Assembly: GCA_003165595.1 (NCBI GenBank)
Contig: PLWQ01000026.1
Coordinates: 61,247-119,657, forward strand
Length of the DNA: 58,411 nucleotides
Direction: 5' to 3'
From: Fibrobacterota bacterium
GTDB lineage: Bacteria > Fibrobacterota > Chitinivibrionia > Chitinivibrionales > FEN-1185
Shown one piece after another: positions 7,642-42,936 of the stretch (within the stretch, counting starts at the first letter, position 1; each line of letters opens with the position of its first letter). The notes beneath the pieces are model-generated. The model searched no databases. It saw nothing but the letters and a program-made list of their open reading frames with translations, and had not been told where the DNA came from. Made by a program: the position numbers and the translations under genes.

Positions 7642-7677
7642 AGAAATTATGTCGGGCGGGGAAAAGCGTCCGGCGTA

Positions 7678-10245
7678 TTACATGCCGGACGCCTTCACCA
7701 CCCGTAGTACCTTTCCGGGAATGAGTACGGTATCCGGCGCAAGTTTGTTCACTTTGTAAAGGCTGTCCACCGAGACGCCGAATTCGGCGGCTATCCCCAT
7801 GAGGGTGTCGCCGTCCTTCACCTTGTAGTAAATCACGCCGGCCTGCGAAGGTGCGGGCGGCGCACTAGCGGCCGAGTCCTTGCCCGGCGGAATCACCAGG
7901 GTGTCGCCCGCGCGAACGAGCAGCGGATCGGCGATTCTGTTGACCGACAAGAGCGAATCGATGCTCACGCCGTACCGAATCGAGATCCTGAAGACGTCTT
8001 CTCCTTTTGCAACAACATGAAGGCGGCTTGCGGTTCTTTGCGCAACCGGCGCACGGGCCGCAGGCGCGCCGGTATCCGGCTTCCCGGCTGCCGCGGGGGT
8101 TTTCTGCGCTAACGGGGCCGTTATCCGTGCCGCGGTGTCAAGCCGCGCGGAATCGGGCCTGGCGGGGGGGGAAACCTGCGGAGCGCTCTGCGGCTTGAGC
8201 ACAAGCGTCTGGCCGATTCTTACGGTGGGGTGCGCCATGTCGAGACCGTTAAGTGCCGCAAGGTCTTTTATCGAGATGTTGTTTTTCCGCGAAATGGAGA
8301 ACGGGGTTTCGCCGATCTGGACCACATGCGTCTGGCCGGCCGGCGGCCGCGCCGGCGCGATTGCGACCCCGGGTGCCGGGCCGGCGGCGGCTGCCTTGGC
8401 GGGCGCGAGCGTCGGGGCCGGCGCAGCCTCGGGCAATGGCGTCCGGGCCGGCGCGGCCTTGGCGAGCGCGGGCGGAGGCTGGGATTCCACCGGCGGCTGC
8501 GGCCTGCTCACCACCAGGATTCGGCCGGGCCGCAAAATGGTTTTTCCGGTCACGCGGTTCCAGCGGCACAGTTGCGCAATGGACACATGGTAATGGCGTG
8601 CGATCCTTCCCAGGTTGTCGCCGGGGCGCACGCGGTGGCGAAGCGCAACGCCCGAGTATTCGTAGTCCGGAAGGTCAAGCGCCTTGATTTCCGATTCCGG
8701 GGGGAGCGCATAGGCGACGGTGGGCGGCAGCGGCGCCAGTGACACGGGTATAAAAACGTGATGACCGGGAACCAGCTGCGCGGAACCGATCCGGTTTATC
8801 GCGGCAAGCGCGTCGGCAGGCACATTGTATTTCGAACCAAGACCGGCTATGTCGTCCCCGTGCTTGATTTCGTAGCGATACCAGCGGACTCGTTTTTCAG
8901 GCGGAAGCTGGGCAATAAAGGAGTTCCACGCCTTCTTTTTGCCCGCGGGCAGGTACAGCAGGCCGCCCGCGCTGTCGGGCGGAGTGCACCAGCGCAGGAT
9001 ATGCGGGTTCATTTTTTGCAGCGAGTCCTGCCTGATGTTGAGTCCGGCCGCAATGTCGCTCAGACTGATGCATTCCTTCACATGGACCGTGTCGAGCGGA
9101 AGCGTGTCGGTGGCGCGCATGATCACGCCGAAGCATTTCGGGTTCTTTGCAATAGTCAATGCCGCAAGATAACAGGGCACGTAGTTTCTTGTTTGTTTGG
9201 GCAGCCTCTTGAGGCGCCAGTAGTCGTTTACTTTGTAACGCGTGATGCAATGCGAAACCCCGTTCTCGCCGCAGTTGTACGCGGCAAGCGCCAGGTGCCA
9301 GTCGCCGAATTGGCCGTAGAGTTTCCTCATGTAGCCGATGGCGGCTTCGGTAGAGCGTATCGGGTCCCGCCGTTCGTCGATCCAGAAGCTTCTCTTGAGG
9401 CCGTAGAGCTTTCCCGTGGAGGCGATAAATTGCCATATTCCCGATGCATTTGCATAGGAATAGGCGAGCGGATTGAACCCGCTTTCGATTAGCGGGAGAT
9501 AGGCCAGGTCTTTGGGCAAACCGCTGTCGGCGAACATCTTCTTCATGAGGGGCAGGTAATAGGAGGCCCGGGAGAACCAGCGGTCTATGGTGATGTCCCT
9601 GTTGTGAATGTAAAACGACAAGGCGCGCTGCACCCGCTTGTTCACTACCATGGGTACGTCGTATTCCAAGCCCTTCTGGCAGGAAAGCGCGGCAAGAGAA
9701 GCGCTGTCGGGCGCCTCGTTGAGCGAATCGATGGAGCGCATGATTTGCCCCTGAAACACCGCCATGGCGATTTCTTCAGGTATGGTGTAGGACGACGGCA
9801 TTTCTTCTTTGTAAATTGCGGCGATTTCGTCGAAGTAGCGGGACGTCGGCTGCCGTTCTGCGCCGCTGCCTTCCGCGACCTGATCCATGGCTTCAATGAG
9901 GCGAACCGCCTGCCTCAGGGTCGAATCGGCGGCCGCGAAATCCTTGTCGTCGCAATTCGATTTCGCTTCTTCGATGAGGTCTTCCGGGGTCTCATACACC
10001 GTGTCGCCTTCGCCGGCGCCGGAGGAGTCGGCCAGCGCCAGGGAATCGGCAGCGGCCGCTACAACCTTGCGGGGCGGGGCGGTAGTGGTGTCGTGCGGAT
10101 GACGAGCCGGGCCGGCGGGCGAGACAAGGGTCGGGGCGTGACTGCGGGTGGAACTGCACGCGGGAATCAGCGCGAGAACGGCCATCGCGAACAGAAAACC
10201 GCGCACCAACGGAATAAGCGCTTTACGAAAAAGAAAAAACCCCAC
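7678..10245 (-). CDS. Membrane-bound lytic transglycosylase (MltD type) with five LysM domains
   Basis: The product has 855 residues from the GTG at 10245, chosen because GAAAGGA lies 6 bases upstream; a longer reading from a TTG at 10293 has no such site. A lipobox (LALIPAC) follows the first hydrophobic stretch, so it is probably a lipoprotein. The SLT domain carries the catalytic Glu in PLIESGFNPLAYSYANASG and the later LALAAYNCGENGV motif, both diagnostic of MltD/Slt lysozyme-like folds that cut glycan strands to 1,6-anhydroMurNAc. The C-terminal half holds five LysM repeats (each about 45 residues, xHxVxxGExxxxIAxxYxVSxxxLxxxN) separated by Pro/Ala-rich linkers. It precedes the M23 gene and probably works with it in wall remodelling. 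Confidence 0.93.
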   Translation of the reverse strand: MGFFLFRKALIPLVRGFLFAMAVLALIPACSSTRSHAPTLVSPAGPARHPHDTTTAPPRKVVAAAADSLALADSSGAGEGDTVYETPEDLIEEAKSNCDDKDFAAADSTLRQAVRLIEAMDQVAEGSGAERQPTSRYFDEIAAIYKEEMPSSYTIPEEIAMAVFQGQIMRSIDSLNEAPDSASLAALSCQKGLEYDVPMVVNKRVQRALSFYIHNRDITIDRWFSRASYYLPLMKKMFADSGLPKDLAYLPLIESGFNPLAYSYANASGIWQFIASTGKLYGLKRSFWIDERRDPIRSTEAAIGYMRKLYGQFGDWHLALAAYNCGENGVSHCITRYKVNDYWRLKRLPKQTRNYVPCYLAALTIAKNPKCFGVIMRATDTLPLDTVHVKECISLSDIAAGLNIRQDSLQKMNPHILRWCTPPDSAGGLLYLPAGKKKAWNSFIAQLPPEKRVRWYRYEIKHGDDIAGLGSKYNVPADALAAINRIGSAQLVPGHHVFIPVSLAPLPPTVAYALPPESEIKALDLPDYEYSGVALRHRVRPGDNLGRIARHYHVSIAQLCRWNRVTGKTILRPGRILVVSRPQPPVESQPPPALAKAAPARTPLPEAAPAPTLAPAKAAAAGPAPGVAIAPARPPAGQTHVVQIGETPFSISRKNNISIKDLAALNGLDMAHPTVRIGQTLVLKPQSAPQVSPPARPDSARLDTAARITAPLAQKTPAAAGKPDTGAPAARAPVAQRTASRLHVVAKGEDVFRISIRYGVSIDSLLSVNRIADPLLVRAGDTLVIPPGKDSAASAPPAPSQAGVIYYKVKDGDTLMGIAAEFGVSVDSLYKVNKLAPDTVLIPGKVLRVVKASGM

Positions 10246-10407
10246 CCTCCGTCCTTTCGCGCGGCTCAGCGGCACGAACCGGTTTCTCGACAAACACAGC
10301 TACTGCCGGCACCTGAAAAATACGAGAGAAGAAACGGCAAACGCTCACACTGTGCGGCGCACTTCAGAAACGCGTCGGCCGATCTTCAAAATATAATACA
10401 TTCAAGG

Positions 10408-10437
10408 AAAACCACGCACGGTTTCCACCGTGCGTGG
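10408..10437 (-). terminator. Intrinsic terminator of the lipoprotein gene
   Basis: On the minus strand an 11-bp perfect stem (CCACGCACGGT with its complement, 10412-10422 and 10427-10437, loop of 4) is followed by TTTTCCTT. It sits just after the stop of the minus-strand lipoprotein gene and before the transglycosylase gene. Confidence 0.85.
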
Positions 10438-10499
10438 TGCGGAAAATATTGTTTCCGGTCTTAAACGAAGATGCCGCGCGGACTGCGGGGCGCTGTGCG

Positions 10500-10943
10500 C
10501 TAGTGCGCCTTTCGCTTGGCGAGGGACTGAATGATGGAACCTGCCGTTGTCTGGTCGAAGACGACGGTATTGGCCACTTCCGGGGTTATGGCCGCGGACA
10601 TCTGGACGGTGACTTTGAATCCGACCGATATGGACTGTCCCAGGACTTTTGTCCAGACGTATGCGGAGTCGATATAGATGGTTTCGGTACCGGACTTGTT
10701 GGTGACCTTTGTCGCGGAGGTTTGTCCGCCTTGAACGTAATCGTAGTAAAGATCACCTATGGTTATCCCTTGCAAATCGATTGCATCAACATTTGTCGTC
10801 GTACCACCCACGTCGATGGAAAGATTAGTGAGGTCATTTTCGACCTTTACCGTCGTTTGCGGGGGAGGAGTGACGGTGAGCGTGCACCCTCCCACCAGGA
10901 TCACAATGCACAACGCGGCGAGCCCCAAAAGTTTCTTTCTCAT
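10500..10943 (-). CDS. Small lipoprotein
   Basis: The product has 147 residues from the ATG at 10943, which has AGGAGG 7 bases upstream; the longer upstream reading is antisense to its neighbour and is discarded. The N-terminus MRKKLLGLAALCIVILVGGC is a type II signal with the lipidated Cys. The rest is beta-rich with many Thr and Val, no Cys, and no family I recognise. The segment SAYVWTKVLGQSISVGFKV could form part of a beta-barrel or lipocalin-like sheet, but this is speculation. It follows the DUF6600-like gene by 73 bases and ends in a clear terminator, so the two may be co-transcribed. Confidence 0.8.
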   Translation of the reverse strand: MRKKLLGLAALCIVILVGGCTLTVTPPPQTTVKVENDLTNLSIDVGGTTTNVDAIDLQGITIGDLYYDYVQGGQTSATKVTNKSGTETIYIDSAYVWTKVLGQSISVGFKVTVQMSAAITPEVANTVVFDQTTAGSIIQSLAKRKAH

Positions 10944-11016
10944 GTCCGATCCTCCTAAAGCTGATGGTGTATAACAAGCAGGATTCCGTTGATTCGCATC
11001 AGTCAATATGCCGCTC

Positions 11017-11970
11017 CTACTGCGACTCGCCCCTTTCCCGGGGGTTGTTGTTGGCGCGGTCTTTGCCGCGGTCGTCGTTCTGGTCCGCGTCCCGATCCGT
11101 TCTTGATTCCACGCGAACCCTGGGAGACGGCGGGTTGCCTCCCGGCTGCTGCGCATTCGCGTCTACTGCCGCGGGTTCCACCCGGTTTCTCGGATTCTGA
11201 TCGGTGGTAACTCTCACCTTCGTTGACGGCTGCGGCTGGGTGCGCACGGTAATTCTGCGAACCCGCGGTCCCGCGGGTACAACCGCCTGCGGCCGCGCCT
11301 GGCTCTGCACCTCAACTTTCACGAGCGGATGCTCGCCGCCGCCCACGCGGACCCTGTTGGGCGTAACCGTAACAACCGGAGCGCGAACCACGCTCCGCAC
11401 AAAGTCGAGCCGGGGAGGTGCGCTGCTATAAACATGCACGCGCGCTCCACCCGCTACGGCCGCGTGTGCCCGAACCTCAACGTGCGCCCGCAATTCCGGT
11501 GCGGTAAAGAACGGAGCCGGGCAGAATAGCCATTCCGCGTGCCTGAAGGCATGTTGGTGCCGGCCGGCCAGCATCGGCGGCGGCAGGGGAGCCCAGGCGA
11601 TTTCGTCGCTGGACACGTTCCATTCCACTCGGGCAGGCGACCATTCGTATCCCGGGACCCACAGCCAGCCGAGGTTTTCGTCGTTATACCAGTTGCCGTA
11701 GTGGCACACGATCCACCCGAACGGCTCATCCGAATCCCAGAGCCAGCCGTCTGCCGAGTTTACCCAGCGGCCGTACATAAAAGGACGCCAGCCCGGTTCC
11801 GCATCGGGACGCCAGACCGTTCCATACCCGTGCACGTGGATCCATTCGCCGTATTCGTTGAGATCCGAGAAACTTGCGCTCACCGATACTTCAACCTGCG
11901 CGCGACACGGCGTCGCCGCGGCAAGAGCCGCAGCCAACGCGCCTGCGATTGCGAGTGTTCGTATCCCCAT
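11017..11970 (-). CDS. Secreted DUF6600-like protein
   Basis: The product has 317 residues from the ATG at 11970, which has AGGAGG just upstream (about 11976-11981); the reading frame opens 14 codons earlier. A signal peptide (MGIRTLAIAGALAAALAAATPCRAQ) precedes a Trp/Tyr/Gly-rich domain (about 25-160) with the repeating pattern YGEWIHVHGYGTVWRP, GRWVNSADGWLWDSDEPFGW and YGNWYNDENLGWLWVPG, which matches the DUF6600 family of envelope proteins found with FecR-type and surface proteins. The C-terminal half is Arg/Val/Pro-rich, basic and probably disordered, ending in a charged RDADQNDDRGKDRANNN tail. Function is not known; it is predicted to be periplasmic or surface exposed. Confidence 0.8.
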   Translation of the reverse strand: MGIRTLAIAGALAAALAAATPCRAQVEVSVSASFSDLNEYGEWIHVHGYGTVWRPDAEPGWRPFMYGRWVNSADGWLWDSDEPFGWIVCHYGNWYNDENLGWLWVPGYEWSPARVEWNVSSDEIAWAPLPPPMLAGRHQHAFRHAEWLFCPAPFFTAPELRAHVEVRAHAAVAGGARVHVYSSAPPRLDFVRSVVRAPVVTVTPNRVRVGGGEHPLVKVEVQSQARPQAVVPAGPRVRRITVRTQPQPSTKVRVTTDQNPRNRVEPAAVDANAQQPGGNPPSPRVRVESRTDRDADQNDDRGKDRANNNPRERGESQ

Positions 11971-11991
11971 AAAGTCCTCCTCATAATGGTA

Positions 11992-12013
11992 TGAATCCCA
12001 AAGTTTGCGCATT
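11992..12013 (+). repeat. 22-bp exact repeat (copy 1)
   Basis: An exact 22-base match, beginning TGAATCCCAAAG and ending TTTGCGCATT, is shared with 33085-33106. At 33 kb it leads directly into the left end of the dispersed repeat (GCGCATTACAGG); here it leads into a CTTG-loop hairpin instead. Confidence 0.85.
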
Positions 12014-12071
12014 CCCCGAAGCTTGCTTCGGGTTTAGCAAACGACTATAAACATCTTCTTCCTTAGGGATG

Positions 12072-12105
12072 GAAGATGCCCCGCAGCTTGCTGCGGGGCA
12101 TCTTC
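12072..12105. repeat. Perfect 15-bp-stem palindrome with CTTG loop
   Basis: GAAGATGCCCCGCAG (12072-12086), loop CTTG, and its exact complement (12091-12105). A smaller hairpin of the same design (CCCGAAG, loop CTTG, CTTCGGG) lies at 12015-12032. No T-run follows, so it is more like a REP-type palindromic repeat than an intrinsic terminator, although it could stop transcription in either direction. Confidence 0.8.
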
Positions 12106-12338
12106 ACTAACGAAAGTAATATACTAAGCAGATGGCGCGTGATGCCACATTTATGCCGGCCGGCGCGGAACTCGCATTGCCAAAGCAGAGGCGCGATCGC
12201 GGGGAGGCGCAATTCCCCGGAGCGCAACTTCTTCGCGTGTGACAACCCGCTTCGTCAACGCCGCTCGCCGCTGGCCACAATTTCTTGGCCGCGTCCGGGC
12301 CGCCTTTTGTATATTTTCAAATCATAGAAGGATGTACC

Positions 12339-13517
12339 ATGACCCGCTTTGGCCTTGACATCGTGGCAGCGGCGTTCCCCAAAGAACTTGCCGGCAGGCG
12401 AATCGGCCTGCTCTGTCACGCCGCATCAATCACCTCAACGTACAAGCACGCCGTTGACGTTTTTCGGAGTTCGCCATGCGCGCTGTCGGCGCTGTTCGGT
12501 CCGCAGCACGGCATGTTCGGCCAGACCCAGGACAACATGGTTGAATGGGAAGGCTGCACGCATCCGGCGCTGGGCATTCCGGTGTACAGTCTGTACGGCG
12601 AGAGGCGAAAGCCCTCAGCCTCCAGCCTGGCCGGGCTCGACGCGCTGGTGGTGGATTTGCAGGACGTGGGCGCGCGGCCCTACACCTATGTCTGGACCGT
12701 TAAGCTGTGTATGGAGGCCTGCTGCGAGGCGGGAATCCCGGTGTGGCTGCTGGACCGGCCCAACCCCATCGGGGCGATTGCGCTCGACGGGCCCGTGCTC
12801 CAGGACGATTTTCACTCGTTTGTGGGCGGCGCGCCCATTCCTCTTTGTCACAGGATGACAATGGGGGAAATGGCGCTCCTGCTCAAATCGCTGTATTTTC
12901 CCAAAGCCGACGTGCATGTGGTGTGGATGGACGGCTGGTGGCGCAACTCGCTCTGGCCCCACACCGGCCTGCCCTGGGTTCTGCCGTCGCCCAACATGCC
13001 GACGTTCGACACGGCGGTCGTGTATCCCGGCATGGTGCTCCTCGAAGCCACCACCATGTCGGAGGGAAGGGGGACAACGCGGCCGTTTGAGATCGCGGGC
13101 GCGCCGTACGTGAATACCGACGCCGTCATAGGCGAAGTGCGCCGCTGCGGCGTCGGAGGATGCGTCGTGCGGCCGCACGATTTTATCCCCACGTTCCAGA
13201 AATGGCGGGGGGAATACTGCCGCGGTTTCCAGGTGCACGTACTTGACGCGAGCGTGTACGAGCCGGTGTTCGCCACGGCGGTGATCCTCGCGGCCGTACT
13301 CAAAGCGTCGGACGGAAAATTCGCCTTCAAGGACCCGCCGTACGAATACGACGCGGTCCACATGCCTTTCGACATCCTGGCGGGCGGCGAGCGGCTGCGC
13401 CGCATTCTGGAAAGCGGCGGCGACCTTGTTGCCGAAAAGCAAGCGTGGCATGATTCATACGGAGCCTTCAAAGCCGCCTTTGCCGACATTGCCCGCTATC
13501 CCGAGGAGCGCGAGTGA
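12339..13517 (+). CDS. namZ: Exo-beta-N-acetylmuramidase (NamZ, DUF1343)
   Basis: The 392-residue product starts at the ATG with AGAAGGA 6 bases upstream. The sequence follows the DUF1343/NamZ family throughout: GLDIVAAAFPKELAGRRIGLLCHAAS, FGPQHGMFGQTQDNM, PVYSLYGERRKPS, DALVVDLQDVGARPYTYVWT, WLLDRPNPIGA and SEGRGTTRPFEIAGAPY. NamZ enzymes release MurNAc from the non-reducing end of muropeptide-derived disaccharides. No signal peptide is seen, so it would act in the cytoplasm on imported wall fragments. Its stop overlaps the next start by four bases (GTGA), and the next two genes encode the enzymes that turn free MurNAc into UDP-MurNAc, which strongly supports the assignment. Length is normal for the family. 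Confidence 0.9.
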   Translation: MTRFGLDIVAAAFPKELAGRRIGLLCHAASITSTYKHAVDVFRSSPCALSALFGPQHGMFGQTQDNMVEWEGCTHPALGIPVYSLYGERRKPSASSLAGLDALVVDLQDVGARPYTYVWTVKLCMEACCEAGIPVWLLDRPNPIGAIALDGPVLQDDFHSFVGGAPIPLCHRMTMGEMALLLKSLYFPKADVHVVWMDGWWRNSLWPHTGLPWVLPSPNMPTFDTAVVYPGMVLLEATTMSEGRGTTRPFEIAGAPYVNTDAVIGEVRRCGVGGCVVRPHDFIPTFQKWRGEYCRGFQVHVLDASVYEPVFATAVILAAVLKASDGKFAFKDPPYEYDAVHMPFDILAGGERLRRILESGGDLVAEKQAWHDSYGAFKAAFADIARYPEERE

Positions 13518-33859: not shown

Positions 33860-35455
33860 ATGAACACCATCCTTTCCAGGGTAACATCGTTCTCGCTGTC
33901 ACGGCACGGCCTGTGGGTCGCCATCGCCGGCGGCGTGTTCTATGCGCTGGCCATGCCGCCGTTCAACGGCATGCTGCACCCGGCCTTTACGCTGTTCCCT
34001 TTGTTAAGTTTCGTCATGTGCCTGCCTCTGTTTCTCGTGAGCCTCACCCCAAAAACGGGACGCGCGGCATGGCGGGCATATTGTTTCGGGCTCATTGCGT
34101 CGGGCTTCCAGTTTTACTGGATCGCCTGTGTGGTTCCCGAAGGCCTGTGGCACCTCGTGCTCATCGGCGTTATCCTGGCCTGCCTGTACGAAGGATTGTA
34201 TTTTCTCGCGCTCGGCATGCTGTTTCGCTGGACAAGAAAGAAATTCCCCGTCCTTTTCCCCGTGATATTTCCCGCTTTCTGGGTGCTGGTCGAATACCTG
34301 CGCAGCCTCGGCGAGATTTCTTTCCCGTGGAACTTTGCCGGCTACGCGCTCACGCCGCTACTTCCGCTGGCGCAGCTCGCCTCGGTGACGGGGGTGTATG
34401 GCCTGAGTTTCGTTGTTATCCTGGGCAATGCCCTTGCGTGGGAGTTTCTGAGTACGCTTCGGCGAAAAGGTTCTATACATCGCGCGCTTCCGGTCTTCGC
34501 GCTTGCCCTGGCGGCCCTTTCCCTGTGGGGATTTTTCCGGATGAAGGCCTCGCCGCCGCCCGGTACCGCGGCCACGAAGATCGCATTGCTTCAGGGGAAT
34601 ATCGACCAGAACCACTGGGGCAACAATTCGCTCGACACGTCGTTTGTGATCCTGGAAACGCTGCTCAAGGAAGCCGGGTTGACAAAACCGGACCTCGTCG
34701 TGATGCCGGAAAGCGCGCTGCTCTGCTACCTCCTTCGACGTCCTCAGTTGAGCGGCCGCGTGTCCGGATGGTCGCGCAGCCTGGGCGTCCCCATTATTCT
34801 CGGCGCGCTTCACTGGGACCCCGCGCCTCGCGGCGGCCGTGAGGACTATCTGGTGTACAACACGGCTTTCTACCTGGATACTGCGGGCCAGAAGTACACG
34901 CCATATTACAAGATGAAGCTCGTGCCGTTTTCGGAAACGCTGCCGTTTACGGGCGCGTTTCCGATCCTGAGCCGGGTAAACCTCGGTCAGGCCGATTTCA
35001 AGCCCGGCAGCGACCCGGTTGTATTTCCAATAGGGAATTCGATAAAGGCGGGACCGTTTATCTGCTACGAAATCACGTATCCGGGCTTCGTGCGCGACCG
35101 GGTGAAGCGCGGGGCCAACCTGCTTGTCAACATCACCAACGACGGATGGTTCGGCAAGACTTCGGGCGCGTTCCAGCATGCCACCATGGTGCGCATGCGG
35201 GCCATCGAAAACGGGGTGCCGCTGGCGCGCGCCGCCAATACGGGAATTTCCATGCTGGTGGACCAATATGGAAGGATCGTGGGCAGGACGCAGCTGTATG
35301 CGCGCACCTTTCTTTCCGGCGCGCTTCGCGTGTACCGGGTTCCCACGCTCTACACGCGGCTCGGCGACTGGCCGGTGCTGCTTTCGGCGTGTATTGTGCT
35401 GCTTGCCGCCGGACTGGCCGCTCTTCGCCGTTTTTCTGCGCGGCCGGCGCGGTAG
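33860..35455 (+). CDS. lnt: Apolipoprotein N-acyltransferase
   Basis: The 531-residue protein has six to seven TM segments in the first 215 residues and one near the C-terminus, with a nitrilase-fold periplasmic domain between (about 230-480). The catalytic triad is visible: Glu284 in VVMPESALL, Lys351 in YYKMKLVPFSE and Cys402 in PFICYEITYP. Other family lines are present (FPWNFAGYALTPLLPLAQLA, NITNDGWFGKTSGAFQHATM). Lnt adds the third acyl chain to lipoproteins in the inner membrane and so feeds the Lol pathway; this suits the many lipoproteins in the window. It converges on the end of the acyl operon with 13 bases between stops. Confidence 0.96.
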   Translation: MNTILSRVTSFSLSRHGLWVAIAGGVFYALAMPPFNGMLHPAFTLFPLLSFVMCLPLFLVSLTPKTGRAAWRAYCFGLIASGFQFYWIACVVPEGLWHLVLIGVILACLYEGLYFLALGMLFRWTRKKFPVLFPVIFPAFWVLVEYLRSLGEISFPWNFAGYALTPLLPLAQLASVTGVYGLSFVVILGNALAWEFLSTLRRKGSIHRALPVFALALAALSLWGFFRMKASPPPGTAATKIALLQGNIDQNHWGNNSLDTSFVILETLLKEAGLTKPDLVVMPESALLCYLLRRPQLSGRVSGWSRSLGVPIILGALHWDPAPRGGREDYLVYNTAFYLDTAGQKYTPYYKMKLVPFSETLPFTGAFPILSRVNLGQADFKPGSDPVVFPIGNSIKAGPFICYEITYPGFVRDRVKRGANLLVNITNDGWFGKTSGAFQHATMVRMRAIENGVPLARAANTGISMLVDQYGRIVGRTQLYARTFLSGALRVYRVPTLYTRLGDWPVLLSACIVLLAAGLAALRRFSARPAR

Positions 35456-35468
35456 AGTGCTGCCGCGC

Positions 35469-35867
35469 CTATTCCTTCGCGAAAAGCAAGACTATCTTGG
35501 AGCACAGCGCGCCGCCTGCGGCTTCGTGAACGGCGCACGCGGCCTGAATGCCGCCGTTCTCCTCCGAAAGGGACACGGCGAGCTCATAGGGAGTGCCCGG
35601 ACCGCACATTTTTGAGAACCGTGATTTGGAAATGCCCGCAAGCTTGTAAGGACCGCAGCGCTCCACCGCCTCCCTGCACACCGCAACCTGATACACGGCG
35701 GGAATAACCGGCATGTCCGGAAAGTGTCCCCGGAAGATGTCGCTGCCTGCGGGGAATTCGAACGTCGCGGTAATGCTGCGGCGGTCGGGCGATGCGCGCA
35801 AGCCGGAAATCGCGTTTGTCAAAGCCTGTTTCATGCCCGCGGCCGCGGGCGGCGAGTTACCGTGCAT
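35469..35867 (-). CDS. Hotdog-fold dehydratase (ApeI/FabZ-like)
   Basis: The 132-residue protein has the hotdog dehydratase motif FRGHFPDMPVIPAVYQVAVC (catalytic-position His48 in GHFP), preceded by ITATFEFPAGSDIF and followed by KLAGISKSRFSKMCGPGTPY. In FabZ the next helix carries an essential Glu (PGVLxxEA); here it reads PAVYQVAV, as in the shorter ApeI-type dehydratases of aryl polyene clusters. It is the last gene of the eight-gene minus-strand operon; its ATG at 35867 lies inside the end of the deacetylase gene and has AAGGTGG just before it. Met12 (35834) is an alternative start. Expected role is dehydration of a 3-hydroxyacyl-ACP. Confidence 0.82.
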   Translation of the reverse strand: MHGNSPPAAAGMKQALTNAISGLRASPDRRSITATFEFPAGSDIFRGHFPDMPVIPAVYQVAVCREAVERCGPYKLAGISKSRFSKMCGPGTPYELAVSLSEENGGIQAACAVHEAAGGALCSKIVLLFAKE

Positions 35868-36651
35868 TGTCCACCTTGTAGGCCGTGATGTCGAACAGGT
35901 CGTTTATGCCGACCGGAACCATTTTGGCATCGCGCATCCTCGAAAACAACAATTCCATCTGCGCAAGGATCTCCGCCTTGTGGGCAGCCACAGGCAGGCT
36001 GTCGTGCAGCAGTACCACGTCGCCGGGCTTCACCGCTAAGGAAGAGATCCGGCGGATATTTCCCAGTCGCCTGTTTCCCGCGTCGCGGGCGCTCCTGTTC
36101 CATCCGACGCATTTCATGCCGAGCCTTGCAAGCGCCGGCCCGAGGTGCGGATTCGCCATTCCCACGGGCGGCCGGTAGAGGAGCGGCTTTGCGCCGATGA
36201 TGTCCCGCACGATTGCCTGGGCCGCGGCAATGTCCCGTACCATTGCATTGCCTAAACGGAAATTTGACAACAGGGAATGTGTGAGGTCGTGACACGCCAC
36301 GACATGGCCGTCGGCGATCATGCGCTTTAGCAGTTGAGGATTGGCGCGCGCCTTGACCCCGACGACAAAAAAGGTGGCGCGGAACCCGAACCGCTTGAGC
36401 AGGTCGAGGATGTCGGCGGTGATATTTTCGTCCGGGCCGTCGTCGAAGGTGAGCCCGACGGCAAACGATTCCCCTTTGTTGTGAATATAGGCGCGAACGA
36501 AGAAGTTACTGCGCAGGTCAACAATTCCCCAGACAAAGACCGCAACGTACGGCACCGCAAGAATCGCGACGATCCACCGGACTTCGGGCAAAAGCACAAA
36601 GGCGGCCGCCAGGCCCGCCAGCGAGCCGAACCAGAAAAGGAGCGGGTTCAC
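35857..36651 (-). CDS. Membrane-anchored NodB polysaccharide deacetylase
   Basis: The 264-residue protein has two hydrophobic N-terminal segments (about 3-22 and 27-46) and then a NodB domain: LTFDDGPDENI (metal Asp), CHDLTHSLLSN (metal His pair), YRPPVGMANPHLG, and VVLLHDSLPVA in place of LHD.G. It would remove an acetyl (or other acyl) group from a sugar on the outer face of the inner membrane. Its ATG overlaps the stop of the upstream ketosynthase-like gene by four bases and its end overlaps the dehydratase start, so it is a full member of the acyl operon. A deacetylase here suggests that the acyl product is attached to, or made on, an amino sugar. Confidence 0.9.
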   Translation of the reverse strand: MNPLLFWFGSLAGLAAAFVLLPEVRWIVAILAVPYVAVFVWGIVDLRSNFFVRAYIHNKGESFAVGLTFDDGPDENITADILDLLKRFGFRATFFVVGVKARANPQLLKRMIADGHVVACHDLTHSLLSNFRLGNAMVRDIAAAQAIVRDIIGAKPLLYRPPVGMANPHLGPALARLGMKCVGWNRSARDAGNRRLGNIRRISSLAVKPGDVVLLHDSLPVAAHKAEILAQMELLFSRMRDAKMVPVGINDLFDITAYKVDNAR

Positions 36652-37448
36652 AGGGTTACCTCGATTGCCGCGCAGGCCTTAGACGAAGGGGAATACGATG
36701 CCGCCACGTGCCTGCCGTGCCTGCCGGCAAGCAGCACCGCGTGAATTCGCAGGGCGGCGCCCAGGTACGACCTCGGGGGCTGCAAACAATCGCCGGATTG
36801 CTCCCCGGCGCCGAGTAATTGCGCGCACCCGGCCGCGCACTCCTCCGGGGTTTGCCCTGCCAGTACTCTTGGCCCAACGGCTCTGATCGCGGCAACGGCA
36901 TCGGCCGGGTCCTTCGACACAAGCAGCGCCACGGCGCCTTCGTCGGCCGGTCCGGGCAGGCTGCTTGCGCAATCGGAAGAGAGATGCGGAACAAGATCGC
37001 GCAGAAGCGGTATGCTCTCGTCGACGGCCGCCACGAGACACGGAAAGGCATCCGGCGGCAGGAGTGCGGCCGACGCCAGGGCCGAGGCAAAGGAGTTCTG
37101 TCCGTCGCACAGCGTGAGGTTGGGACCGTCCATGGAAAATTCGAGCGCCAGTTTGCCGGCCATGCTGTTGTGCACCGAGGCGATAAAATTCCTCGGCGAG
37201 CCGAACCCGTCTTTGAAAACGCCGTCCAGAAAACTCTTTGTTTCGTCAAGCGCGCCGAGCGCCGTTCCCACGCACAGGGATCGGGGCTTGCGGGTCGCGG
37301 CCCCAAGAAGACGCGCCGCGGAAACATAGGCCATTTGCCAGATGCGCGGATCCCTCCGCTTGACATGCGCGGGGACTTCCGCCTGCCAGCCGGTGTCCTC
37401 GAAAGGAATAACTGCGGCGAATCCGCGCACGAAGAGTGAAGTCATCAT
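36648..37448 (-). CDS. Ketosynthase-like chain length factor (KAS N-terminal-like)
   Basis: The 266-residue protein resembles the PF13723-type (Ketoacyl-synt_2) proteins found as ApeC in aryl polyene clusters: RDPRIWQMAYVSAARLLG, SLCVGTALGALDETKSFLDG, GSPRNFIASVHNSMAGKLAL, NLTLCDGQNSFASALASA. It covers only the N-terminal half of a ketosynthase, the nucleophile motif TACxSG is replaced by LCDGQNS, and the His/Lys catalytic residues of the C-terminal half are absent. It should be inactive by itself and probably partners one of the intact ketosynthases to set chain length. It follows the ketosynthase gene by 9 bases and overlaps the deacetylase start by four. Confidence 0.82.
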   Translation of the reverse strand: MMTSLFVRGFAAVIPFEDTGWQAEVPAHVKRRDPRIWQMAYVSAARLLGAATRKPRSLCVGTALGALDETKSFLDGVFKDGFGSPRNFIASVHNSMAGKLALEFSMDGPNLTLCDGQNSFASALASAALLPPDAFPCLVAAVDESIPLLRDLVPHLSSDCASSLPGPADEGAVALLVSKDPADAVAAIRAVGPRVLAGQTPEECAAGCAQLLGAGEQSGDCLQPPRSYLGAALRIHAVLLAGRHGRHVAASYSPSSKACAAIEVTL

Positions 37449-37457
37449 GGCCGGGTC

Positions 37458-38600
37458 CTACGACGAAAGCGAAAATACGGCCGAGGCGTTGTTGCCTCCA
37501 AAGCCGAACGAATTCTTGACGATGTGACGCATGTCCCTTCGCACACCCGCCGAAGGCGCAAGGCCGATGGCGGGGTCGGTTTGCTCGAACCCCGCCGTAG
37601 GCGGAACGATGCCGTCGCGCAGGGCGCACACGGCAAACACCGCCTCCAGGATCCCGGACGCGGCGAGCGTGTGCCCCAGCGTTCGCTTAACGGAAAAGAA
37701 AGGCGGCACGTCGGCGAAAACGGCTCGCACGGCCGCAATTTCCGATTTGTCGTTGTCGGGCGTGGCCGTGCCGTGCGTGGCGATCGCGCCCACGTCCGCC
37801 GGTGCGATGCCTGCCTCGTCAAGCGCCGCCCGCATTGCTTTTTGCGCTCCCAGCCCTTCGGGGTGCGGGGCAGTCATGTGGTGGCAGTCGGCGGAGGCGC
37901 CCCAGCCCGCGACACGCGCCAACGGCGGAACCCCGAGCCTGTGCGCGGTCGCTTCCGATGCAACAAGCATGGCCCCGGCTCCTTCACCCAGGCTCGTGCC
38001 CGCCCTGCGTTCGTCGAACGGCCTGCAGCCGGCAGGGTCTATGAGCATGAGACTGGAAAACCCGCGCAGGGTGAGCAGGGAAAGCGCGTCCGCACCCACG
38101 GCAAGGCACGCGTCGAAATCGCCCTGTTCCACGAGACGTTTTGCCATTCCCACCGCGTGAAGCCCGGTGGAACAAGCCGTAGACAAGGTGTAGAATCCGG
38201 CAAGGCCGAACGCACGGCACAGGAAGCCTGCGGCGGCGCATGGTTCGTGAAACGCAAGCTCGCGGGCGGCATTCGGAGCAACCAAGGCGTCGGTCCGGAG
38301 CGCCTTGTAGAACAGTTCCGATCTGGTAATGCCACCGACCGTGGTGGCGAAGACCAGGCCGATCGCTACGCCCCGGCGGTCGCCGACGGCGGCAAGCGCT
38401 TCCCGGGCTGCGATGCAGGACAGCGCAATGGTTCTGTTGGGCGACTCGAATTCGTCCCGTAGGTCGGTGATCTGGCCGCAGAGCGGGGCCGCCTTGAGGC
38501 CGCTTTCAAAAATAGACAAGGGAGAAAGGCGGTCGCTTCCCCGGTACACGGCGTCGCGTCCGGCGCCTACGCCCGATCCTGCGGTGCAGAGCGCACCCAT
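37458..38600 (-). CDS. Beta-ketoacyl-ACP synthase (active-site residues intact)
   Basis: The product has 380 residues from the ATG at 38600. The frame stays open upstream, antisense-free only to about 38630, and the residues ALPLIGMGALC suggest that a few more codons (CTG 38624 or ATT 38630, touching the ACP stop) belong to the first strand; the long extension further upstream overlaps the ACP gene and is spurious. All catalytic residues are present: Cys143 in TACSTG, His276 in THGTATPDND, Lys305 in SVKRTLGH and His310, with the closing NSFGFGGNNA. It resembles FabF/ApeR-type enzymes that extend an acyl-ACP by two carbons. Confidence 0.9.
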   Translation of the reverse strand: MGALCTAGSGVGAGRDAVYRGSDRLSPLSIFESGLKAAPLCGQITDLRDEFESPNRTIALSCIAAREALAAVGDRRGVAIGLVFATTVGGITRSELFYKALRTDALVAPNAARELAFHEPCAAAGFLCRAFGLAGFYTLSTACSTGLHAVGMAKRLVEQGDFDACLAVGADALSLLTLRGFSSLMLIDPAGCRPFDERRAGTSLGEGAGAMLVASEATAHRLGVPPLARVAGWGASADCHHMTAPHPEGLGAQKAMRAALDEAGIAPADVGAIATHGTATPDNDKSEIAAVRAVFADVPPFFSVKRTLGHTLAASGILEAVFAVCALRDGIVPPTAGFEQTDPAIGLAPSAGVRRDMRHIVKNSFGFGGNNASAVFSLSS

Positions 38601-38629
38601 GCCGATGAGTGGGAGTGCGGCCAGGACAA

Positions 38630-38890
38630 TTACCCTTTGGAACGGTTTTCCTCGATGTAGGAGGCGAGGGAACGCACCGAGGCGAACACCTGCCTGCCCG
38701 TGTTTGCGTCCGGAACGGTGACGCCGTATTCCTTTTCCAGGAGGACGATCAGTTCGAGCGAATCGATGGAATCGAGGCCCAAACCGGCCCCGATGAGCGG
38801 AGCATCGGCGTCGATGTCTTCGGGTTTGAGGTCCGACAGTTTGAGCACCTCGATTATCTGGCGCTTGAGCGTATCGATGAGCGGTTCCAT
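38630..38890 (-). CDS. Acyl carrier protein
   Basis: The product has 86 residues from the ATG at 38890. It is a standard ACP with helix I (LIDTLKRQIIEVLKLSD), the acidic loop and the phosphopantetheine site GLDSIDSLEL (Ser41; DSI rather than DSL), then VLLEKEYGVTVPD. It is dedicated to this operon, lying between two ketosynthase-type genes; the start shares its first base with the stop of the upstream gene (ATGGA at TAATGG-type junction), so translation is coupled. A longer frame to 38932 overlaps the neighbour and is not used. Confidence 0.95.
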   Translation of the reverse strand: MEPLIDTLKRQIIEVLKLSDLKPEDIDADAPLIGAGLGLDSIDSLELIVLLEKEYGVTVPDANTGRQVFASVRSLASYIEENRSKG

Positions 38891-39660
38891 TATTCTTCCT
38901 TTGCAAGGGAGAGCGTGACGGCCACGTCGCATGATGCGGCTTCGATACTGCCGCCTTTTTGCTCGCGCACAAGCCGGATCAGTTCGGTAAAATATAATTC
39001 GTCGCGGGCGGGCGCACCCTCTTTGGCCGCTGGCGAAAACGAGGCGGAAAGTCTCATTGCCGTGCCGCTATTGTCCGGTTGCAGGGAGAGGAGCAGCGCG
39101 AAGGCGTTCGATGCGGCTGCGGTACCGCCGACCAGCGGACTTGTTGCATCCTGCGTCTCCACCGCGTTGACACACAGCGTAAGCACCGCGGATGCCTTTC
39201 CAGTTTTTAGCAGCGACACCGCGAGTTCGAGCGCAGTGAGGCCGCTGGCGCCGTTTCCGGCCACCACCCGGTTCGGTCCCTTGAGGCCATAGTAAATGGC
39301 AATGTCGGCGATGGCCGATGACGGAAGCGTGGCCGAAAAGATTGCGGGGCTGGGAAAGCCCGCGATCACGGATTCCATGTATCGCATGTCGGTGGACAGG
39401 GATCCTGCGGATATGCCGAGCGTTATCGCCGTGGAATCCTTGTGTGCGATCTGGCGGCCGGCCAGGGCCACGGACGCGGCGGCAAACGCGAGCCGGTCGG
39501 CAAGCATAAGCTTCCCGAAAGCGGGATACGGCTTGTCGAGAACCTGATCGCGCCTCACATCCCCGGGACCGGCCTGGCCTTCGTCCCAGGGACGAAGGCC
39601 CAGCGGCCCGGCAATGCCCTGCGGCAGGAGCGCGGCAAACGATTCGACGCGAATGCTCAT
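38890..39660 (-). CDS. Half-size ketosynthase-like protein lacking the nucleophile
   Basis: The 256-residue protein covers only the N-terminal (thiolase-like) half of a ketosynthase: YPAFGKLMLADRLAFAAASV, TLGISAGSLSTDMRYMESVI, ATLPSSAIADIAIYYGLKGP and then VVAGNGASGLTALELAVSLL. The last line aligns with VVSTACASGLxAL of active enzymes, so the nucleophile Cys is Gly at residue 137. It therefore cannot condense and probably acts as a chain length factor or a structural partner. It ends with the ordinary half-domain boundary and has no C-terminal half. Its start overlaps the stop of the upstream intact ketosynthase by four bases (ATGA), which suggests a heterodimer between the two. Confidence 0.82.
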   Translation of the reverse strand: MSIRVESFAALLPQGIAGPLGLRPWDEGQAGPGDVRRDQVLDKPYPAFGKLMLADRLAFAAASVALAGRQIAHKDSTAITLGISAGSLSTDMRYMESVIAGFPSPAIFSATLPSSAIADIAIYYGLKGPNRVVAGNGASGLTALELAVSLLKTGKASAVLTLCVNAVETQDATSPLVGGTAAASNAFALLLSLQPDNSGTAMRLSASFSPAAKEGAPARDELYFTELIRLVREQKGGSIEAASCDVAVTLSLAKEE

Positions 39661-40772
39661 TGCACCTCCGAAAGCACGACCGCGGCGTTAATTCCTCCGA
39701 ACCCGGCGGAGAGGCACAGCATCGAGCTGGTCCTGAGAATCTGGGGCTTGGCCGATATCGGCACCGGCTCGTCCACGCCGAGTGTTTCAAATCCCGCGCT
39801 GGGAGGAGCGAGCCTGCGGCGAAGGCATTCGGCGGCCACGCAGATTTCCAAAAGCGAGCCCGCGCCGCTGGCATGGCCGATTGCGCCTTTTACCGAAAAG
39901 CAAGGAGGATATTCTTCGCCGAAAAGGCTCGTTATGGCCTTTGCCTCCATTGCGTCGTTGTACTTTGTGGCGGTGCCGTGGCATTTGACGCCGCCGATGT
40001 CGCCGGGCGGCAGGGCCGCGTCGGCAAGCGCGGCCTTCGCCGCGCGAAAGAGGCCGTCGCCGGTGCGCGACGGACCGGTGCGGTGGTTTGCGTCGTTGGA
40101 ACTGCCTGCGCCCGCGACTACCACGTCGCCGGCGAAAGGTTCCCTGTATGTCAAGAGCGCAAGGGCCGCGCCGTCGCCGATGGTAAGGCCGTCGCGCGAT
40201 GAGTCGAAGGGTCGCGCGCCCGCGGGCGACAGCGCCGACAGCGCGTGGAAACCGGTTGCCACAAAGCGCGAAATGCCGTCGAATCCCAGCAGCACAACGG
40301 AGCGTGCGCGGCCCGACACGAGCATGTCGCGGCCGATTTCCACTCCCGTTGCGCCGGACGCGCACGCGTCGGAGACAACGATGGTGCGGCCCGCGGCAAT
40401 GTTCAGGATTTTCTTTGCATAGTGGGCCTGCGAAGACAAAAGGGGCATAAACGCTTCGGGCCGAATGCCCGATTCATAGTATGCTTCGAGCGGCGAAATA
40501 TCGCCCTTTGCGGCGCAGAAGATAAACGCGGTTGTGTCTTTGTCAAGATCCGAAGCGTCGATGCAGGGCGCCAGCGCTTCGGCGGCGACCCCGAGGCTCC
40601 GCCACGAAACATCCTTGAACGGCGCATGGGCAACGGGAACGCCGAAACACGGGCCGGGTACAATCGCGCTTGCGCCCTCGAACAGGTCCGCTACGGTTTC
40701 CTCAAGCGTTCCGAGGCTGCTCAGGATGCCGCAGTCTTCGAGCACTACTGCCGTACGTAAAGCCGCGGTCAC
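39657..40772 (-). CDS. Beta-ketoacyl-ACP synthase (active-site residues intact)
   Basis: The product has 371 residues from the GTG at 40772, which overlaps the stop of the dehydratase gene (GTGA); the upstream extension is out of keeping with this coupling. Catalytic residues are Cys137 in SDACASGATG, His265 in CHGTATKYND, Lys295 in SVKGAIGH and His300, with the end motif LSAGFGGINAAVV. It belongs to the FabB/FabF group, divergent from housekeeping enzymes and closer in feel to ApeO/ApeR of aryl polyene clusters. The N-terminus is short, with LEDCGILSSLG in place of the usual ITGxGxxSxxG. Confidence 0.9.
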   Translation of the reverse strand: MTAALRTAVVLEDCGILSSLGTLEETVADLFEGASAIVPGPCFGVPVAHAPFKDVSWRSLGVAAEALAPCIDASDLDKDTTAFIFCAAKGDISPLEAYYESGIRPEAFMPLLSSQAHYAKKILNIAAGRTIVVSDACASGATGVEIGRDMLVSGRARSVVLLGFDGISRFVATGFHALSALSPAGARPFDSSRDGLTIGDGAALALLTYREPFAGDVVVAGAGSSNDANHRTGPSRTGDGLFRAAKAALADAALPPGDIGGVKCHGTATKYNDAMEAKAITSLFGEEYPPCFSVKGAIGHASGAGSLLEICVAAECLRRRLAPPSAGFETLGVDEPVPISAKPQILRTSSMLCLSAGFGGINAAVVLSEVQ

Positions 40773-41167
40773 GATTGCGCCGCCTTGATGAATCCGTGGG
40801 CAAGGGGAAAGCCGTTGCAGGTCGCATTGCATTCGAAAAGGCCGAGATTTCCCATTTTGGCCTTGACGGTAATTTCCGCTTCAAGCGCATCGCCGGCAGC
40901 GGCAGCGCCCGGGAAGACAAAATCGTCGATGCTTGCGAGAACGCCGCGGCGCACAGCCCCGCCCGATTCCATGGCTTCGCACAGGATGGCGGCCTGGGCG
41001 CAGAATTCTACAACGCCTTCCGCCGACATGCCCGGGCCATAGTGTTCGTCGGGCCGCACCGTTCTTGCGCACCGGATCTTTCCCTTTTCGAATGCGACAA
41101 TGGCGTCCACAACAATCGCCGGCGGCCGGTGCGGAAGCAGGGTTTCTACGGCAGGAAAGGTTTGCAA
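40769..41167 (-). CDS. Hotdog dehydratase (ApeP/FabA-FabZ-like), first gene of the acyl operon
   Basis: The product has 132 residues from a TTG at 41167. This start is chosen because GAGGA lies 8 bases upstream and the protein then begins right at the fold (LQTFPAVETLLPHRPPAIVV); the frame stays open for another 117 codons into a repeat-rich gap, which is not coding. His13 in LPHRPP and Glu54 in VVEFCAQAAILCEAM are the expected catalytic pair of this dehydratase group, so it should be active on 3-hydroxyacyl-ACP. It matches ApeP-type dehydratases of aryl polyene clusters. The promoter must lie in 41168-41652. Confidence 0.85.
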   Translation of the reverse strand: MQTFPAVETLLPHRPPAIVVDAIVAFEKGKIRCARTVRPDEHYGPGMSAEGVVEFCAQAAILCEAMESGGAVRRGVLASIDDFVFPGAAAAGDALEAEITVKAKMGNLGLFECNATCNGFPLAHGFIKAAQS

Positions 41168-41652: not shown

Positions 41653-42936
41653 ATGCTCGACCCTCAATTCATCCGCGACAATCCCGACCTGGTCAAAACC
41701 GGGGCGGCAAACAAGAAGAGTCCGGTAGACATAGACAAACTCCTCTCGCTCGACGAGCGGCGGCGGAGCATCATCCTGGACGTGGAACGGCTCAAGAGCG
41801 TGCGCAACGCAAAATCTCCGGACATCGCCCGGCTCAAGAAGGAAAAGAAAGAAGCCGAAGCCGCCGCGCTTCTGGCCGAAATGAAGACGCTTTCGGAAAA
41901 GGTGAAGGAGCTCGACGAAAAGCAGAAAGCCGTTGAAGACGAGATTCGCGGCGTGTCGATCTGGATTCCCAATATGCCGCACGCGAGCGTGCCCCACGGC
42001 ACCAGCGCCGCCGACAACGTTACGGTGAGCCAGTGGGGAAGCGAGCCCTCGTTCGATTTCGCCCCCAAAGACCACCTGCAGCTCGGGACGGCACTTGACA
42101 TAATGGACTTTCCGCGCGGGGCAAAGGTGGCGGGCGCGGGGTTTCCGGTGTACAAGGGCGCCGGCGCACTGCTCGAACGCGCGCTTATCAATTTCTTTCT
42201 CGACACCCATACGCTCACCAACGGGTATCGGGAGATATTTCCTCCGTTTCTTGTCAATGCCGACAGCCTTTTCGGCACCGGCCAGCTGCCCAAGTCGCAG
42301 GACCAGATGTACTACATCGGCGAAGACCAGCTGTACTGCATCCCCACGGCCGAAGTGCCGGTGACCAACCTGCACCGCGACGAGATGTTCGAGGCCGAGC
42401 GATTGCCCGTCAAGTACTGCGCGTACAGCGCATGCTTCAGGCGCGAGGCCGGCTCCTACGGCAAGGACACCAAGGGGTTTCTGCGCGTGCACGAGTTCAA
42501 CAAAGTCGAGCTTGTAAAATTCGTGGCCCCGGAAACCTCCTACGACGAGCACGAATCGCTCCGCGGCGACGCCGAGGGAATTCTGCGGGCGCTCGGTCTC
42601 AAGTACCGCGTCCTGCTGCTGTGCGACGCGGACCTGTCCTTTGCCGCGGCAAAGTGCTACGACCTCGAAGCATGGGCGCCGGGCGAGAAGAAGTTTCTCG
42701 AAGTGTCCTCGGTGAGCAACTTCGAGGATTTCCAGGCGCGGCGCATGAACATCCGGTTCCGGCCAAAGGCGGGGGAAAAGCCGCGGTTCGTACACACCCT
42801 CAACGGCAGCGGCCTGGCAACCGCGAGAATCCTGGTTGCGATACTGGAGACCTATCAGACGTCAAGCGGGTCGATCCGGGTACCGGAGGTTTTGCAGCCC
42901 TATATGCACGGGATGAAGGAAATTGTTAAAATATAA
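41653..42936 (+). CDS. serS: Seryl-tRNA synthetase
   Basis: The 427-residue protein has the usual length and layout: an N-terminal helical hairpin (about 30-105, ARLKKEKKEAEAAALLAEMK ... KVKELDEKQKAVEDEIRGV) that holds the tRNA-Ser long arm, and a class II catalytic core with motif 2 (CFRREAGSYGKDTKGFLRVH) and motif 3 (LNGSGLATARILVAILETYQ). The serine-binding line CIPTAEVPVTNLHRDEM is present. It charges tRNA-Ser (and tRNA-Sec if present) in the cytoplasm. It is a single gene, divergent from the acyl operon and followed by a hairpin-rich gap. No T-box or other leader control is seen. Confidence 0.98.
   Translation: MLDPQFIRDNPDLVKTGAANKKSPVDIDKLLSLDERRRSIILDVERLKSVRNAKSPDIARLKKEKKEAEAAALLAEMKTLSEKVKELDEKQKAVEDEIRGVSIWIPNMPHASVPHGTSAADNVTVSQWGSEPSFDFAPKDHLQLGTALDIMDFPRGAKVAGAGFPVYKGAGALLERALINFFLDTHTLTNGYREIFPPFLVNADSLFGTGQLPKSQDQMYYIGEDQLYCIPTAEVPVTNLHRDEMFEAERLPVKYCAYSACFRREAGSYGKDTKGFLRVHEFNKVELVKFVAPETSYDEHESLRGDAEGILRALGLKYRVLLLCDADLSFAAAKCYDLEAWAPGEKKFLEVSSVSNFEDFQARRMNIRFRPKAGEKPRFVHTLNGSGLATARILVAILETYQTSSGSIRVPEVLQPYMHGMKEIVKI

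Follow-up and report, generated by a model that had tools for sequence, protein, structure and literature searches.

Gene clusters for flexirubins and aryl polyenes are the described systems closest to the locus reported here. The flexirubin cluster of Chitinophaga pinensis encodes five putative ketosynthases (FlxC, I, L, N and O) along with the polysaccharide deacetylase FlxP, and its FlxA combines a HAL-like motif 1 with a TAL/PAL-type motif 2, the residue at motif 2 being Glu in HAL and Gln in TAL/PAL (PMC3992019). The ketosynthase–chain-length factor (KS–CLF) complex ApeO–ApeC has also been described (PMC8358021). In the literature that we searched, which covers the field in part, we found no description of two KS:CLF pairs in flexirubin clusters. 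Flexirubin proper needs the dialkylresorcinol genes darA and darB.

Here we analyze a 58,411-nucleotide stretch of DNA (the window) from a Fibrobacterota bacterium (assembly GCA_003165595.1, contig PLWQ01000026.1, positions 61,247 to 119,657). It contains an eight-gene operon that most probably represents the part of a flexirubin-type aryl polyene pathway in which the chain is built, separated from the other genes of the cluster.

Results

Organization of the operon

The operon occupies positions 35469-41167 on the minus strand and comprises eight intact open reading frames (genes A–H). It is flanked by a convergent Lnt gene and a divergent SerS gene, two landmarks outside the operon that were identified by reading:

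Gene A, 40769..41167, minus strand: ApeP-like hotdog dehydratase subunit that keeps the catalytic Glu (VEFCAQ) and lacks the GHFP His
Gene B, 39657..40772, minus strand: ketosynthase whose lineage is separate from ApeO and lies next to it; partner, C
Gene C, 38890..39660, minus strand: predicted half-size chain-length factor without catalytic Cys
Gene D, 38630..38890, minus strand: ApeE-type acyl carrier protein (ACP) with an LGLDSID motif
Gene E, 37458..38600, minus strand: intact ketosynthase, more ApeO-like than ApeR-like; partner, F; presumed start, ATG 38600
Gene F, 36648..37448, minus strand: predicted half-size chain-length factor of the ApeC family, with CDGQNS in place of the Cys
Gene G, 35857..36651, minus strand: NodB/CE4 deacetylase whose motifs are intact and whose N-terminus has a hydrophobic stretch
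Gene H, 35469..35867, minus strand: ApeI-like hotdog subunit that keeps the GHFP His and lacks the Glu
Lnt, 33860..35455, plus strand: Lnt-like apolipoprotein N-acyltransferase
SerS, 41653..42936, plus strand: seryl-tRNA synthetase

As stated in a preliminary description of this DNA, the eight genes are joined by overlaps or by gaps of less than 40 bases, and every one of the reading frames was found. The A/B, B/C and F/G junctions are 4-base overlaps, the C/D junction is a 1-base overlap and the E/F junction a 9-base gap. The two other junctions depend on the start codons: D/E is a 29-base gap if gene E starts at ATG 38600, and G/H is either an 11-base overlap or, if gene H starts at ATG 35834, a 22-base gap. 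The latter start may be the true one, as suggested by the relative of gene H in a sister genome. Between the ACP stop and ATG 38600 (positions 38600-38630), there is no in-frame ATG, GTG or TTG for gene E; its frame is open upstream of ATG 38600 and resembles a KS N-terminus there, and translation may begin at an ATT that overlaps the ACP stop. The ketoreductase (KR), ligase, acyltransferase and thioesterase genes that the preliminary description reported as missing are indeed missing from the operon.

Condensing enzymes and acyl carrier protein

Alignments bear out the initial recognition of two intact ketosynthases: B and E, like their relatives, have intact KS active sites, gene B displaying the active-site Cys and the first His, with the GH of the second His read in the sequence. 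Both are PRK09185-type ketosynthases (1.2e-80 for gene E), and the best PDB match of gene B is ApeO (6qsp_A, 7e-36). In KS trees, one of which was rebuilt without row L122_ApeO, B and E each fall in a group of their own with full support, and these two groups are distinct from ApeR, FabF and NodE. Gene B constitutes a KS lineage of its own that has counterparts in Planctomycetota and Bacteroidota, as it clusters with the corresponding KS of Aureispira (97/93) and of Planctomycetota (99/98).

Genes C and F had been described as two dead half-size ketosynthase-like proteins. The nucleophile is indeed missing from both alignments (VAGNGASG in C and CDGQNS in F), but the idea that they are decayed ketosynthases was rejected: both are conserved, and sequence, HMM and predicted fold identify them as CLFs of the ApeC/Iga12 type. 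Gene C matches Iga12 in sequence (6kxd_B), and the best PDB match of its AlphaFold model (pLDDT 85) is ApeC (6qsp_B, E 1.5e-12), followed by Iga12. Gene F matches Acinetobacter baumannii ApeC in sequence (7f28_A, E 0.0036) and scores over the cut-off of the Pfam ApeC family (PF13723, 33.1 bits); its model (pLDDT 83) has Iga12 as best PDB match (E 1.4e-10), ApeC ranking fourth. The operon thus encodes two KS:CLF pairs, B:C and E:F. Its single ACP, gene D, exceeds the cut-off of the ApeE-type ACP family (NF006617, 77.8 bits for a cut-off of 70), in keeping with the original assignment.

Putative dehydratase pair and deacetylase

Genes A and H had been taken for hotdog dehydratases resembling ApeP and ApeI. 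Gene A scores below the cut-off of the NCBIfam FabZ model (3.7e-10) and weakly matches ApeP in the PDB (6qsr_B, E 0.19); in an alignment with Fibrobacter ApeP, it has VEFCAQ where the latter has FEYMAQ, and GHFP is missing. Gene H scores below the cut-offs of FabZ models (9.1e-07) and weakly matches ApeI (6qsr_A, E 0.038); aligned with Fibrobacter ApeI, it has GHFP followed by P-V-Q, and the Glu is missing. We take 6qsr to be the ApeI:ApeP complex. This distribution of residues suggests that A and H might assemble into a heteromer and share a single active site, to which one subunit would bring the catalytic Glu and the other the His. While the two genes thus match as described, albeit weakly, they are outside the wider conserved core: they are found inside the operon only in the window's genome (G000) and in the sister genome G001, i.e. 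in the window's own genus.

Gene G is the NodB deacetylase that had been announced, as recognized by its match to PF01522 (1.9e-26) and its intact motifs (TFDDGP, HDLTHS, RPPVG and LLHD).

Conservation within Fibrobacterota

A profile search detected gene C orthologues in 17 of the 168 genomes of the phylum, all of them Chitinivibrionales. The synteny comparison across Fibrobacterota that had been proposed at the outset, made on the neighbourhoods of gene C searched in 60 relatives, showed that B-C-D-E-F-G recur in constant order and orientation across families of Chitinivibrionales, with B-G identities mostly of 40-60% outside the genus. Such a distribution, together with the conserved order, excludes chance. 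In G001, all eight genes lie between the same Lnt and SerS genes. A Lnt homologue also adjoins the operon at loci L037, L042 and L043, and a SerS homologue at L037, L039 and L040; as the operon is found beside Lnt or SerS in other families too, the block is old and has been inherited vertically. The cation efflux, prephenate dehydratase/DUF362 and MlaD genes that adjoin the operon elsewhere were set aside, being shared by close relatives only.

Other genomes of the order and of the phylum carry canonical aryl polyene clusters. The operon could be viewed as a relic of such a cluster, whose condensing block would supply an unusual membrane acyl chain and no pigment, and it does lack a reductase, a ligase, ApeR and an MMPL exporter. 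We nevertheless consider a relic very improbable. Indeed, the genes are intact and the B-G order is kept across families, which implies that they are under selection, and no canonical cluster was seen in the 17 gene C-bearing genomes, which argues for a separate lineage and not for recent decay.

One canonical aryl polyene-type cluster (KS, MMPL, LolA and lyase genes) belongs to a genome of the window's order (G029; L158:2871-6614 and 7426-13060), where it adjoins a gene for a 1248-aa KS fusion protein.

Occurrence of the gene block in other phyla

The annotated plasmid pAUEa of Aureispira anguillae (NZ_AP026868.1) carries a cluster whose first part encodes an aromatic ammonia-lyase, FabG, a KS, an ACP, two hypothetical proteins and a thioesterase, and whose second part encodes, in order, a KS, a half KS, an ACP, a KS, a CLF, a deacetylase and LolA. 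Genes B, C, D, E, F and G correspond one-to-one, and in order, to this second block, the best match being in each case the corresponding gene (B, 1e-55; C, 4e-14; D, 8e-26; E with KS3, 1.2e-63; F with CLF2, 8e-17; G with the deacetylase, 3.5e-36). An HMM built on the gene C orthologues matches Aureispira CLF1 at 1.1e-22, gene D is 51% identical to ACP2, and gene A weakly matches a 153-aa gene of the cluster. The exact gene set, which the preliminary description had presented as unfamiliar, is therefore in its B-G part the block of a Bacteroidota cluster. The identity between the operon and this block is 28-51%, a range that we counted against our best explanation.

In a Planctomycetota metagenome-assembled genome (JAJRPF010000048.1), a series made of KR (44% to Fibrobacter ApeQ), ApeR, KS, CLF, KS, CLF and NodB precedes acyltransferase, glycosyltransferase, LolA and MMPL homologues. 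Judging from the gene letters, genes L-P of the C. pinensis flx cluster would be the same block as B-G. The recurrence of the B-G block in these clusters places the operon with the flexirubin-type clusters. A plasmid search made with gene F alone returned weak Streptomyces matches only.

An aromatic ammonia-lyase encoded elsewhere in the genome

The window's genome contains a member of the TAL/PAL-type aromatic lyase family on a contig separate from that of the operon (G000, C37:540.7-542.3 kb). The MIO motif is present in this protein, motif 1 contains SH and motif 2 contains Gln (NQDVVSMG); its NCBIfam scores are below all family cut-offs. Motif 2 has Gln in all 13 readable operon-associated copies of the lyase, one of which is partial, and Glu in the Hut-type copies of genomes G009 and G003. 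A function of the C37 lyase in histidine degradation was rejected in view of this Gln and of the absence of urocanase (PF01175) from the window's genome.

A TAL/PAL-type lyase is present in 13 of the 17 operon genomes, in all three canonical-cluster genomes of the order and in none of the 20 genomes with neither, lyase–operon co-occurrence having a Fisher p of 6.7e-7 that is uncorrected for kinship. Just four independent contrasts are supported by a FabF tree that is slightly flawed (its G008 row is a different KS, not FabF); on average, 3.2 of them agree and 0 oppose, so that the co-occurrence is not significant once phylogeny is taken into account. In G037, the lyase lies ~5 kb from gene C on the same contig. 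LPLAT-type acyltransferases neighbour the lyase: they are close to it in G000, and either adjacent or close to it in related genomes. Three genomes of family f7 have a LolA-MMPL pair elsewhere.

The four operon genomes in which the lyase is absent (G007 and genus g20) were counted against our best explanation. They would fit a different product, namely a non-aryl polyunsaturated acyl chain, of the kind found in ishigamide or Nod factors, made without an aromatic starter and set on an amino sugar freed by NodB. Such a product would also accord with the resemblance of both C and F to Iga12, with a combination of NodB, ACP and KS that recalls nodB, nodF and nodE, and with the lack of an ApeH-type ligase in the window's genome. 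However, B and E fall apart from Sinorhizobium meliloti NodE in the trees, no NodA- or NodC-type gene was seen in the operon, the same block adjoins an aromatic ammonia-lyase in Aureispira, and the lyase tracks the operon. A non-aryl chain is thus unlikely in our judgement, and a Nod-factor system was rejected because the KSs are outside the NodE clade. We retain the flexirubin-type aryl polyene pathway as the preferred reading.

Near the operon of genus g20, prephenate dehydratase, ACT and DUF362 are fused in one protein (L044:13995-16061 and L045:3890-5956). This fusion is a possible other aromatic supply in g20, a genus without TAL-type lyase.

Other pathway components in the genome

The preliminary description had envisaged that the missing genes might lie elsewhere, as in a split ordinary aryl polyene cluster. 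This proved partly correct: the lyase, which co-occurs with the operon, is on another contig, but neither an ApeH-like ligase nor an ApeM-like exporter was found in the window's genome, where gene F is the only member of the canonical ApeC family. A split ordinary cluster was consequently rejected; the operon is not simply such a cluster cut in two. None of the genome's own KSs outside the operon groups with ApeR in the tree. These absences, like that of A and H from the operon in other families, also count against our best explanation. For the aryl acid ligase (FlxY type) of a flexirubin-type pathway, the genome offers 11 AMP-binding matches as candidates, one of which, PaaK-like by size, lies 18 kb from the lyase. 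Its FabG-like reductases include one beside FabF and AcpP (assigned by position) and SDRs at C37 and C7. As the operon has no KR, keto-reduction is most simply ascribed to a borrowed FabG, as suggested earlier.

Several ladderane-like clusters with SDR reductases (B12 radical SAM, CrtI-like oxidase, KS, CLF and ACP; C37 and C7) are present in the genome, and the operon might conceivably feed acyl chains to them. We give this hypothesis hardly any credence: B and E are outside the tree groups formed by the KSs of those clusters, and the block is accompanied in other phyla by aryl-polyene genes instead.

The C37 cluster (659.9-669.1 kb; L052:6501-15626) encodes two B12-binding radical SAM proteins, an SDR, a KS, a full-length CLF, an ACP, a 275-aa unknown protein and a CrtI-like FAD amine oxidase, which together make a ladderane-like set. 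The C7 locus (68.6-78.4 kb; L053:8630-18438) encodes a radical SAM-KS fusion (1250 aa), a KS-KSIII-like fusion (774 aa), an ACP, GcvT-like and 4HBT proteins, an SDR and a malonyl transferase; frames of ~1250 aa that include a KS are common to many genomes of the order. On C27 (87.9-90.8 kb; L055:9915-12821), a KS and an ACP adjoin a type III polyketide synthase of the chalcone synthase family, and C18 (49.1-53.1 kb; L054:8164-12029) carries a KS, a KS-like N-terminal half and a B12 radical SAM protein.

Discussion

From the observed gene identities, intactness and order, and from the lyase association, we infer an order of reactions, a product and a role for the deacetylase. The C37 lyase would convert Tyr or Phe to 4-coumarate or cinnamate, and some ligase would load the aryl acid on D or another ACP. 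B:C and E:F would then extend the aryl chain with malonyl units, FabG or another SDR would reduce the keto groups and A:H would remove water; without enoyl reduction, a conjugated aryl polyene would remain. In the envelope, the pigment would probably be attached to an amino sugar or lipid that the gene G deacetylase has prepared. The class proposed in the preliminary description, a condensation and dehydration core for an aryl-polyene-type product, is supported, with dehydration being part of the operon in this genus only.

A broader proposal, tentative and to be taken as a whole, is that Fibrobacterota that are for the most part uncultured and probably anaerobic use scattered loci to produce an aryl polyene envelope lipid of an undescribed kind: one KS:CLF pair would take the aryl starter in place of ApeR while the other elongates, a housekeeping FabG would perform all keto-reduction, and export would proceed without the usual MMPL pump.

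A flexirubin-type polyene core is thus found as a free-standing operon in a phylum that otherwise showed, in this analysis, canonical aryl polyene clusters only, and cluster-based mining would miss the remaining pathway genes. The recognition of two predicted CLFs also provides a model, open to testing, of the reason why these pathways retain two KS:CLF pairs, and leads one to ask whether one pair replaces ApeR as the starter enzyme.

With the canonical ApeA-R clusters (Escherichia coli, Xenorhabdus doucetiae and Fibrobacteraceae), the operon shares the ApeO:ApeC-type KS:CLF and the ApeE-type ACP; its A and H proteins would correspond to the ApeI/ApeP-type dehydratases. By contrast, it has two KS:CLF pairs where those clusters have one and ApeR, it includes a NodB gene, and ApeR, ApeQ, ApeH, ApeK and ApeM are not part of it. 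The xanthomonadin and arcuflavin clusters (PMC3949708) and a Roseomonas plasmid cluster (L219) also combine a KS, a half-KS or CLF, an ACP, a dehydratase and a deacetylase, the last being carried by the arcuflavin and Roseomonas clusters as well as by the operon, but these systems have one KS:CLF pair, and the arcuflavin starter is derived from chorismate (XanB2 type), not from an ammonia-lyase. Ishigamide Iga11-Iga12 has the CLF fold predicted for C and F, in an actinomycete system whose CLF is full-length and whose other cluster genes differ.

The closest likeness is with the flexirubin-type clusters: C. pinensis flxA-flxY (PMC3992019) comprises several KS genes, a polysaccharide deacetylase and a TAL-type lyase, and the predicted flexirubin-type cluster of Aureispira pAUEa displays the KS-CLF-ACP-KS-CLF-deacetylase order. 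Unlike these clusters, the Fibrobacterota block stands alone, with the lyase on another contig and with none of KR, ApeR, ligase, thioesterase and LolA next to the block, and a putative ApeP/ApeI pair has been added at both ends of the operon in one genus. The gene set is already known as a block; the novelty lies in its detachment and in the phylum that carries it.
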